Source: Muribaculum sp. An289
GTDB lineage: Bacteria; Bacteroidota; Bacteroidia; Bacteroidales; UBA932
DNA: 64,000 nt
Reading direction: 5' to 3'
Assembly: GCF_002159555.1 (NCBI RefSeq)
Contig: NZ_NFIV01000001.1
Location: 186,001 to 250,000, forward strand
This document shows, piece after piece, positions 19,219 through 58,765 of the stretch. A program made the translations under genes and the position numbers. The notes beneath the pieces are model-generated. The model ran no database searches. It worked only from the letters and a program-made list of their open reading frames with translations, and was not told the origin of the DNA. How positions within the stretch are numbered: the first letter of the stretch is position 1; every line of letters begins with the position of its first letter.

Positions 19219-19962
19219 ATGGCATACGGAATACCATACAAAGGCTCGAAGAACAAAATTGCCGGATGGGTGGTGTCCCATTTCCCAGAGGCGGAGCATT
19301 TTTACGATGTCTTCGCCGGAGGGTGTGCGGTCGCCCATGCGGCAATGCTTTCCGGAAAATTCAAGTCGTTCCATTTGAACGACATCCAGGAACAATATCC
19401 CCGCATGTTCGTCGATGCCGTACGTGGCAAGTTCAAGGACGGCGCGGCTGCCGTCACCAGGGAGGAATTCCACCGCATGAAAAACACCGACCCATACGTG
19501 GCGGCATGCTGGAGTTTCGGGAACAACTGCAGGAATTACCTGTGGGGGAAGGATATCGAAGAAATAAGATATGTGGCATGCGACATGGTGCTGAACCCTT
19601 CATGGGAACGGCGCTTCGAGTGCTACAAAAAACTGATGAAAACTCCCGGGCCTTTGCCCAAGTTGGATCCCGTGCAGCGTTTGAAGCGCCTGCAGGTTTC
19701 CGGGGTTCCGCCGGTGGAAATCACGGTTACCGGGCTCGATTATGCGGATATCGCCTTTGAGAAAGACAGCGTGGTATATTGCGATCCCCCTTATTCGGGG
19801 ACCGATGGCTATGGGATGGAATTCGACCACTGCCGGTTTTACGACTGGCTCCGTGAGCTTCCCTGCCCCGCATTCGTGTCCGAATATTCGATGCCCGATG
19901 ATTTCACCGAAATAGGCTCGATAAGCAAAACATGCTCATTACCAGCGCATGGGGGGGGGTAA
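19219..19962 (+). CDS. D12-class DNA adenine N6-methyltransferase, out of frame at a poly-G tract
   Basis: As sequenced, 247 aa. Motif I is YDVFAGGCAVAHA (SAM binding, about residue 33) and the catalytic motif is DPPY (about residue 194). Nine G (19951-19959) end the frame at GGG-TAA. With eight or eleven G the frame continues KMTIEKLFIHKKWNP, the usual EKLF-type end of the family, and stops at 20008. That stop overlaps the terL ATG at 20005 (ATGA), strong support for the longer form as native. The enzyme probably protects phage DNA or alters host methylation. The truncated form may lack activity. Confidence 0.85.
   Translation: MAYGIPYKGSKNKIAGWVVSHFPEAEHFYDVFAGGCAVAHAAMLSGKFKSFHLNDIQEQYPRMFVDAVRGKFKDGAAAVTREEFHRMKNTDPYVAACWSFGNNCRNYLWGKDIEEIRYVACDMVLNPSWERRFECYKKLMKTPGPLPKLDPVQRLKRLQVSGVPPVEITVTGLDYADIAFEKDSVVYCDPPYSGTDGYGMEFDHCRFYDWLRELPCPAFVSEYSMPDDFTEIGSISKTCSLPAHGGG
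19951..19959 (+). repeat. G9 homopolymer near the 3' end of the methylase
   Basis: Nine consecutive G. Eight or eleven would join the methylase to its in-frame C-terminal tail; nine or ten stop it within a few codons. A slipped-strand phase-variation site or a sequencing error are the two explanations. Confidence 0.7.
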
Positions 19963-53412: not shown

Positions 53413-53449
53413 TTTGGGACCAGCGGATAATTCCGGTCGGAATCTTCAG

Positions 53450-53621
53450 TTTTCCACCCCACAGCCAGCCATCGTTTTTGTAAAATATTGATAATAAGTA
53501 GTTTATAAAAATCACATCTGCACTTGGGTACTTTCTAAGGTACCCAAAGACAGCCTGTATTTTTGTAAGTTATTGATTATCAACCACTACGAAAGAGACC
53601 GACTGGCTGTGGGGTGGAAAA
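53450..53621. repeat. 172-bp inverted-repeat element, copy 1
   Basis: Perfect 19-base terminal inverted repeats (TTTTCCACCCCACAGCCAG), inner inverted TTGATAAT, and a central GGGTAC-TTTCTAAG-GTACCC-type dyad. The whole unit can fold back on itself. A second copy of equal length and orientation is at 58519. No coding capacity and no clear target duplication; a miniature mobile element or structured regulatory element. Confidence 0.8.
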
Positions 53622-53669
53622 TGACACTACAAATCCGCAGGTCCTGTTTTTTATTATGTAATAAAGCCA

Positions 53670-53677
53670 TATCTTTG
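53670..53677 (+). promoter_or_regulatory. -7 box of the poly-G lipoprotein gene
   Basis: TATCTTTG, 26 bases before the ATG at 53703; the -33 position holds TTTT (53647-53650), 19 bases upstream. Confidence 0.5.
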
Positions 53678-53702: not shown

Positions 53703-55141
53703 ATGAAAACGATTACAAACCCTGCCCGGGGGGGGGGTATTTTAGGAATCTCCGGATTTTGTCGCTCCTGAGCATCTTCGCTCTCTTTACCGTCTCATGC
53801 GAAAAAGGGGAAACACCTGCCGACGACCCTGAAAACTTCGTAAACCTTTCCATCTCCGATGTAAGCGACGGACACTTCACCGTCGATTTCCAAGCCGGAA
53901 AAAGCACAAAGACCATCGAATATGCCGTCTGCCGTGCCGTGAACATGAAGGCCGACTCCGTAGCCTTTATGGAAGGTTCGCTCGACAACATACGGCAGGC
54001 CATTCCCGAGGGAGACGGCAAGATATCAGTGCATTTTGATTTCTCAAATCCTCTGGATTTCGGCCCGTATACTGTCTATGCCCGCGCAATCTCCGAATCC
54101 GGACAAGCATCCCGATTCGTGAAAGAGCAGGTCTGCGCGCTGACTACGGGAGTCACCGTAGAATATGTAAGTCGCGCAAGATATAAAATGAAAACATCTT
54201 ATCACGGAAAGGACTTCATCATCGCAGGATACAGACAATCAAAACAGAATTTCTTCCGGAACCTTGAGCGTAACGGATATGAACAGAGTCTGGACAGGAT
54301 AGTCGATTTTATCATGAATGATGCTACCGAGAGCGTACAGAACGGCTGGCTTGATTTAAGCACCCCGATATTTAATGACGGACAGTCATGGGAAGAGCAG
54401 TTCTTTTGGGATTTAAGCTCGGATAACAGCTACACATGCCGCGACGACCAAATCGTAGGATTCGTCACGTCTGACGGGACAAAAATCACCGGTGCTTATG
54501 CTTTCGAGATTCCGCTTCAGGAATACGACCCGTCCATACCTCTTCCGGACAGCATGAAAGTTGAAATCGATTTTTCACAAACCTTGACTGAAACCGAAGA
54601 ATGGAACGACGGCGGCGGCACCGCCACCACTACATACGAATATTTCCCTGTTGAAATCTCTATGGGAGATGATTATGAACACTATTTTTATGGTCATTTC
54701 ACAGGCAACTTTTATGACTTTGTTTATGAATACGACGGCCTGATGGACAGGTTTGGATACCTATTCGGGCAAAACGAAGAAGAAATGTTAAAATGGTATT
54801 TTACAAGCGGAGGGTTCAATTACATATTAGACACTGAAAAGATCGACTCTTCCTTACTGTCATTCCATGGAATTACCGTTTACAGCAATGGGGAAACAGT
54901 CGAAGACTATTATCCTGAAATGACGATAGTCGCCTGTCCAGTAAACTGGAACGACGAGAGCGTCCTCGGCATAACAGTCGTACAAGTCCCTGAAGAATAC
55001 CTGAAAGGTGCTGGAACGACAACAGACATGGAAACGAAGGGCATTGGTAAAACGGACATGGGTAAAACGGCTACATTCACTGTTCCGGTCACCCGTTTTA
55101 CGGAAACACCGCCTTGCAAAGTCATGCCGACGGTACAATAA
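53703..55141 (+). CDS. surface lipoprotein, frameshifted at a G10 tract (phase-variable candidate)
   Basis: ATG at 53703 reads MKTITNPARGGG and then leaves frame. With one more G (11, or 8) it continues YFRNLRILSLLSIFALFTVSC, a lipoprotein signal with lipobox VSC, followed by about 450 residues. N-terminal part is an Fn3-like domain (SDGHFTVDFQ ... FGPYTVYARAISESG); the remainder is a beta-rich extracellular region with no known family. The promoter sits at the proper distance from this ATG, which supports it as the true start. As sequenced the protein would not be exported. Confidence 0.75.
53728..53737 (+). repeat. G10 homopolymer in the lipoprotein signal region
   Basis: Ten G ten codons after the start. 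Eight or eleven restores the frame; ten gives an early stop. Position just before the signal peptide makes it a complete on/off switch. Confidence 0.7.
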
Positions 55142-58387: not shown

Positions 58388-58518
58388 AGCCGCCTCAAAA
58401 AAAACGATGCGCAAAGTTTTCGGACGGCGAGGTGACAAAGGAACGAAAATCTGATTTTTTTCCGCCGATTTTTACCGCATTCCTGTTTTCGTGACCGGAA
58501 AAGCAATTTCCCAGCAAA

Positions 58519-58690
58519 TTTTTCACCCCACAGCCATCTTTCCCATTTTGAACATATTGATAATCAGTATATTACAAAAACACAGGCTACTTTTGGGTAC
58601 TTTCTGAGGTACCCAAGCGCAGGTCGAATTTTACTAATTTATTGATTATTAGCCATTTATCAAATCACTGGCTGGCTATGGGGTGGAAAA
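58519..58690. repeat. 172-bp inverted-repeat element, copy 2
   Basis: Same length and orientation as copy 1. Terminal repeats TTTTTCACCCCACAGCCA / TGGCTATGGGGTGGAAAA (two mismatches), same inner TTGATAAT inversion and central GGGTACTTTCTGAGGTACCC dyad. Blocks at the ends, centre and inner dyads are conserved; the sequence between them has drifted, which suggests selection on structure. Confidence 0.8.
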
Positions 58691-58765
58691 CAGGCCCGAT
58701 AGCATCTCACAAGCGCTCAACCACTCCAAGTTCCCGGCCTTGTGCAACCGAGGCCCGGGACAATG

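Follow-up and report, generated by a model that had tools for sequence, protein, structure and literature searches.

According to PMC11868660, a phase-variable locus is recognised by variation at a single locus, by its reversibility and by a minimal rate at which variants become detectable without selection, and invertible promoters are classed there as phase variation by recombination. Discussions of phase variation in gut Bacteroidota mostly concern DNA inversion, and among the matches listed in the open-access literature (titles and abstract openings) none was a phase-variable set of the slipped-strand or homopolymer kind from Bacteroidota. Poly-G/C switching is described for Campylobacter, in which such tracts peak at lengths of 9 (53%) and 10 (26%), tracts of at least 8 G mediate switching in C. 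jejuni, and the genes concerned act on surface structures (PMC6321876). According to PMC2831843, poly-G/C tracts were generally under-represented in a survey of 99 genomes, and tracts of more than 7 bases were generally not over-represented.

The locus described here lies in a 64-kb window (the whole stretch of DNA that was analysed, G000 C1:186001-250000) of a host genome of 2.32 Mb in 36 contigs (G000), the host being a probable gut bacterium. At a distance of 25 nt downstream of ATG 53703, the window carries a pure G10 tract (Table 1), which, judged from its frames and surroundings, is probably a simple-sequence-repeat on/off switch of slipped-strand phase variation that would be OFF in this assembly. 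Such a lipoprotein switch would combine a known kind of mechanism with a surprising host group. With ten G, the tract lies within the length of at least 8 G/C that is regarded as hypermutable. As in the Campylobacter phasome, the tracts are pure G/C (there mostly within ORFs), the genes are surface-modifying and expression would be frame-dependent (PMC6321876), whereas the phylum is a different one, the tracts are fewer (17 of at least 9), many of those in sister species sit in intergenic repeats, and length variation within a strain is here a prediction. The poly(A) tract of Listeria inlA is likewise a 5' homopolymer with a short out-of-frame leader peptide, and its frameshift is reversible (PMC2831843). 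The invertible promoters of Bacteroides share the phylum and the surface-gene targets, but the lipoprotein locus has no gene-specific invertible segment.

When tract lengths of 6-13 were tried, a lipoprotein of 478/479 amino acids resulted only at 8 and 11 G, and the closed lengths of 9, 10 and 12 G led to a stop after 13-22 codons. The original prediction had placed the tract between the ATG and the lipoprotein signal, with 10 G closed and 8 or 11 G open, and both statements were borne out. Upstream, TATCTTTG is presumably a -7 promoter box of the TAnnTTTG consensus (the two strands of the 64-kb window together hold 25 matches to it); its 3' end lies 25 nt upstream of ATG 53703. It is a credible promoter, well placed for this ATG as had been claimed. 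In the proposed switch, the promoter at 53670 would make a short AT-rich leader, translation would begin at ATG 53703, and the tract, nine codons after it, would set the frame. With 8 or 11 G, the ribosome would continue into a lipobox signal peptide and an envelope lipoprotein that is probably surface-exposed, and with 9, 10 or 12 G it would make a short leader peptide. A G gained or lost by slipped-strand mispairing at replication would switch single cells and render the population mixed. We infer frequent and reversible changes of tract length among the cells of one strain, export of the protein to the surface and a benefit from the ON as well as the OFF state.

Table 1. Features of the lipoprotein locus (positions in the window), tracts inside genes of the host genome, and loci of the repeat families in the sister species G016.
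Feature	Position	Strand	State or remark
Presumed -7 promoter box TATCTTTG (TAnnTTTG)	53670..53677	+	box of the same type seen by eye before the homologous ATG in L034 and L037
Leader frame from ATG 53703, G10 as assembled	53703..53771	+	closed; 22 codons and stop TGA (53769-53771)
Pure G10 tract setting the frame	53728..53737	+	run length exactly 10
Lipoprotein frame downstream of the tract	53738..55141	+	467 codons, then stop TAA; continuous with ATG 53703 if the tract has 8 or 11 G
In-frame TTG, rival start	53759..53761	+	
Lipobox cysteine codon	53798..53800	+	N-terminus of the mature protein, C-E-K-G-E
In-gene tract 1, lipoprotein of the window			closed at 10
In-gene tract 2, lipoprotein with below-cutoff DUF4136 match, tract in signal peptide			open at 9
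In-gene tract 3, Acyl_transf_3 gene			closed at 10, judging by the frames
In-gene tract 4, hexapeptide acetyltransferase			closed at 10
In-gene tract 5, SLT transglycosylase			closed at 10
In-gene tract 6, DUF3575 protein with below-cutoff OmpA match			closed at 12
In-gene tract 7, MBOAT			closed at 9
In-gene tract 8, lipoprotein with below-cutoff BACON match			closed at 12
Repeat-family loci, G016			L043, L046, L047, L048, L049, L051, L053, L054, L055, L057

For the lipoprotein gene, the closest named relative found came from a MAG of Candidatus Merdivivens pullicola (a Bacteroidales genus). The N-termini of the mature proteins, C-E-K-G-E in the window and C-E-K-E-E in this relative (L034), resemble the lipoprotein export signal C-X-K-(D/E)2 that is known from Capnocytophaga (PMC5080379), and by this analogy the lipoprotein is likely surface-exposed. 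It had no Pfam match and no match in the viral contigs searched. An AlphaFold model from a two-sequence input (mean pLDDT 31.4) was discarded as unusable.

Whether the tract can act in this way depends on the start codon, which is very probably ATG 53703, because in the sister orthologue the homologous ATG begins an open frame, and the region at TTG 53759 is structured. The Ca. Merdivivens pullicola orthologue (L034, the same sequence as L036 of G035) has an uninterrupted frame that begins at the homologous ATG, crosses GGGAGGGGG and continues into the signal peptide; not a single ATG, GTG or TTG lies between that ATG and the lipobox. The residues directly after the tract are similar in the three species (YFRNL, YFRNL and IFRTL). 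Bacteroidetes genes are generally described as lacking a Shine-Dalgarno sequence and as having low-GC, unstructured leaders (PMC3155529); GC content is 20% over the 25 nt before ATG 53703, with a folding energy of 0.0 kcal/mol for the region, as compared to 44% GC and -12.8 kcal/mol around the TTG. A start at 53759, or a restart there after the leader peptide, would reduce the tract to a mere part of the 5' leader and had been named as the case that would speak against the original prediction. It would account for the closed frame in the sister species G016, where a TTG is found at the homologous place and, as in G000, in the lipoprotein frame; moreover, the TGA of the leader sits just past the TTG, and the 5' sequence between the tract and this TGA looks, by eye, strikingly similar in G000 and G016. 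The G035 orthologue nonetheless has no start codon at that place, the fold of the TTG region is unlike that of Bacteroidetes start regions as characterised in PMC3155529, and the signal peptide of a TTG start, MSLLSIFALFTVSC, has no basic residue ahead of its hydrophobic core, so that this alternative is very improbable.

The sequence downstream of the tract is conserved between the species. Its dN/dS amounts to 0.19-0.25 in all three species pairs (NG86; 440-457 codons), by which measure the lipoprotein frame is under purifying selection; therefore, the frame that is closed in G000 and G016 appears nevertheless to be kept as a protein. Purifying selection is what a switch would predict, and by itself it would also be compatible with a recent loss. 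At the tract site, the three species differ: G10 is closed in G000, GGGAGGGGG is open in G035 and GGGGAGGGGG is closed in G016, where the tract is interrupted and both its length and the closed frame are identical to those of G000. The upstream gene is common to G000 and G016. We read GGGAGGGGG and GGGGAGGGGG as putative frozen alleles, one open and the other OFF; if GGGGAGGGGG is no such allele, G016 would have to express the gene in another way. The closed frame of G016, which persists without a slippery tract, is the strongest point against a simple switch story, and together with the closed state in G000 it counts for an explanation by which the tract is mutation-prone and not an evolved switch, the frameshifted gene being either on its way to loss or rarely reverting under selection. 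The intact frame of 467 codons and its low dN/dS argue against gene loss, and we consider this explanation unlikely, all the evidence from other tracts included (see below). Another conceivable scenario is leaky expression, in which slippage of RNA polymerase or the ribosome on G10 yields a steady in-frame share and the tract tunes the level. Purifying selection on a closed frame would fit, and transcriptional slippage is described as rescuing frameshifted homopolymer genes in Buchnera (PMC2831843). The GGGGAGGGGG of G016, however, is a poor substrate for slippage, and yet this species retains the closed frame. We regard the scenario as quite improbable; expression by slippage and switching can coexist.

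Along with the switch, a survey of the genome for G tracts had been proposed, and it returned a strong excess of long tracts, several of them inside envelope genes. Across the whole of G000, G/C runs of 7, 8, 9, 10, 11 and 12 number 8, 7, 6, 9, 0 and 2, respectively, which gives two humps, and runs of at least 9 (9-12) amount to 17 as compared to about 0.035 expected by an order-5 extrapolation. Long G/C tracts are thus strongly over-represented in G000, in contrast to the general picture of the 99-genome survey. A 317.5-kb sample, which was drawn around tracts and hence used for short runs only, contains 218, 14, 1 and 0 G/C runs of 5, 6, 7 and 8, and its A/T run counts fall off smoothly. By dinucleotide shuffle alone, the two tracts of the window are not unusual (5 matches to 8 G observed, a mean of 3.49 in the shuffles, and 34 of 100 shuffles reaching 5); in the real genome, G/C runs of 6-8 are far rarer than this model implies. 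At least one G9 run was present in 133 of 149 genomes of the family, with very uneven counts.

The 17 long tracts of G000 comprise eight inside genes, two special cases and seven that are intergenic or unclear. The special cases are the tracts at the gene for an OmpR-type response regulator and at the end of the phage D12 methyltransferase gene, both of which are described below. Seven of the eight in-gene tracts are closed, which might indicate gene loss or decay; still, the proportion does not deviate strongly from an expectation of one third open, since, by simple arithmetic, drift with one third open would leave at least seven of eight closed with a chance of about one in five, and the closed majority accordingly says little in favour of gene loss. 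That runs of 9-12 G/C lie so far above extrapolation, with eight of them in genes (mostly envelope genes), speaks against it as well. Long G runs are also error-prone, the assembly consists of contigs only, and in five of the seven closed genes the loss of one G would open the frame, as would be seen if the run had been misassembled or misread, its true length was 8 or 11 and the gene was simply open. This is next to negligible as an explanation, because pure G9-12 runs in place of the mixed sequence of the sisters would not arise through errors, and no common shift opens all genes: with one G fewer, the lipoprotein of the window would remain closed and the DUF4136-like lipoprotein would become so.

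Sister orthologues were searched for seven of the in-gene tracts (all except the hexapeptide acetyltransferase) and were comparable for three. The acyltransferase and the DUF4136-like lipoprotein had no match in this search, and the DUF3575 gene and the lipoprotein with the weak BACON match had distant or paralogous matches only. The MBOAT gene (80-81% identity) has a closed G9 in G000, an open G8 in G016 and AGGTCGGGA, which is open without a tract, in G035. The SLT transglycosylase gene (73-76% identity) is closed by G10 in G000 and carries mixed sequence, open in both cases, in G016 and G035. These comparisons indicate that, at a given site of a conserved gene, a tract may be present in one species and absent from the next, and that the open or closed state differs as well. 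In the SLT gene, ordinary in-frame sequence is found in both sisters at the place where G000 acquired a pure tract, which may be counted in favour of a mutation-prone tract.

Taking these tracts together with the switch proposed for the lipoprotein, the chances appear evenly balanced that the Bacteroidales lineage of Ca. Merdivivens and its kin possesses a Campylobacter-style poly-G phasome. It would comprise at least eight genes with slipped-strand tracts (for lipoproteins, a DUF3575 outer-membrane-type protein, O-acyl/O-acetyl transferases and a lytic transglycosylase). The surface would be switched one gene at a time and without invertases, and in sister species single tracts would be frozen open or shut by interruption. 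Should some lineages commonly use slipped-strand poly-G switching as well, a survey restricted to inversions would overlook part of their surface variation, and what is annotated in their genomes as a frameshifted gene may be a switch.

The first of the two special cases in G000 is a G9 tract just before the likely ATG of an OmpR-type response regulator (L078:9976-10022; G000 C31:24939), where a short upstream frame ends in TAATG and overlaps that ATG, so that tract length could change translational coupling. Another G9 tract (G000 C15:11978, L021) is situated in the upstream region of the SLT transglycosylase gene, about 300 bp upstream of the tract listed in Table 1.

In G016, 11 of 17 long tracts belong to two intergenic repeat families, of which one combines a G run with TAATTTTGCGG and the other a G run with A's and GTGC.ACG. 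Within the copies of the two repeats, G runs reach up to 13, the shortest ones being of 4 or 5 (below which the patterns did not match), and therefore such runs change length in the genus. Since most long G016 tracts are located in intergenic repeats, a long G run cannot by itself be taken for a switch. In a crude scan, a single one of the 17 tracts lies in an ORF of more than 160 aa (L049, with 567 aa and open at 10), and two of nine tracts in G035 (L058 and L060) are possibly coding, both doubtful. In the first repeat family, a TAnnTTTG-like box follows right after the G run; with regard to poly-G as a promoter spacer, no steady -33 box was seen by eye in these G runs followed by TAATTTTGCGG. 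For four of the 17 long tracts of G016, the nearest contig end is no more than about 150 bases away (C35:33, C67:1, C81:103 and C74:35028), as if the assembly broke at length-variable or repeated G runs.

The second tract of the window, G9 at 19951-19959, is located at the 3' end of a phage gene for a D12 N6-adenine methyltransferase and encodes its last three glycines. An IMG/VR contig (L084) that is identical over this gene also has G9, and a 93%-identical one (L085) has G6 with the frame unchanged; at 8 G, the frame change would only add about 15 residues. A role as on/off switch was rejected for this tract, given its position at the gene end and not the start, and given the G6 in the same frame of the 93%-identical phage. 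Of the two poly-G switches that had been predicted for the window, the host tract thus stands as a probable one, and the phage tract falls away as gene-terminal glycines.

An invertible promoter was also considered for the lipoprotein gene, upstream of which a perfect 19-bp inverted repeat spans 53450-53621. It was rejected, as the repeat is a dispersed element and the -7 box at 53670 lies outside it. The element is near-palindromic and about 170 bp long, with 19-bp inverted ends and copies at 53450-53621 (ends perfect) and 58518-58691. Seven paired copies were counted in 317.5 kb of G000, whereas 166.7 kb of G016 and 122.9 kb of G035 contained none. A terminator stem (53417-53428 with 53633-53644, followed by a T-rich run) seems to enclose the first copy in its loop.
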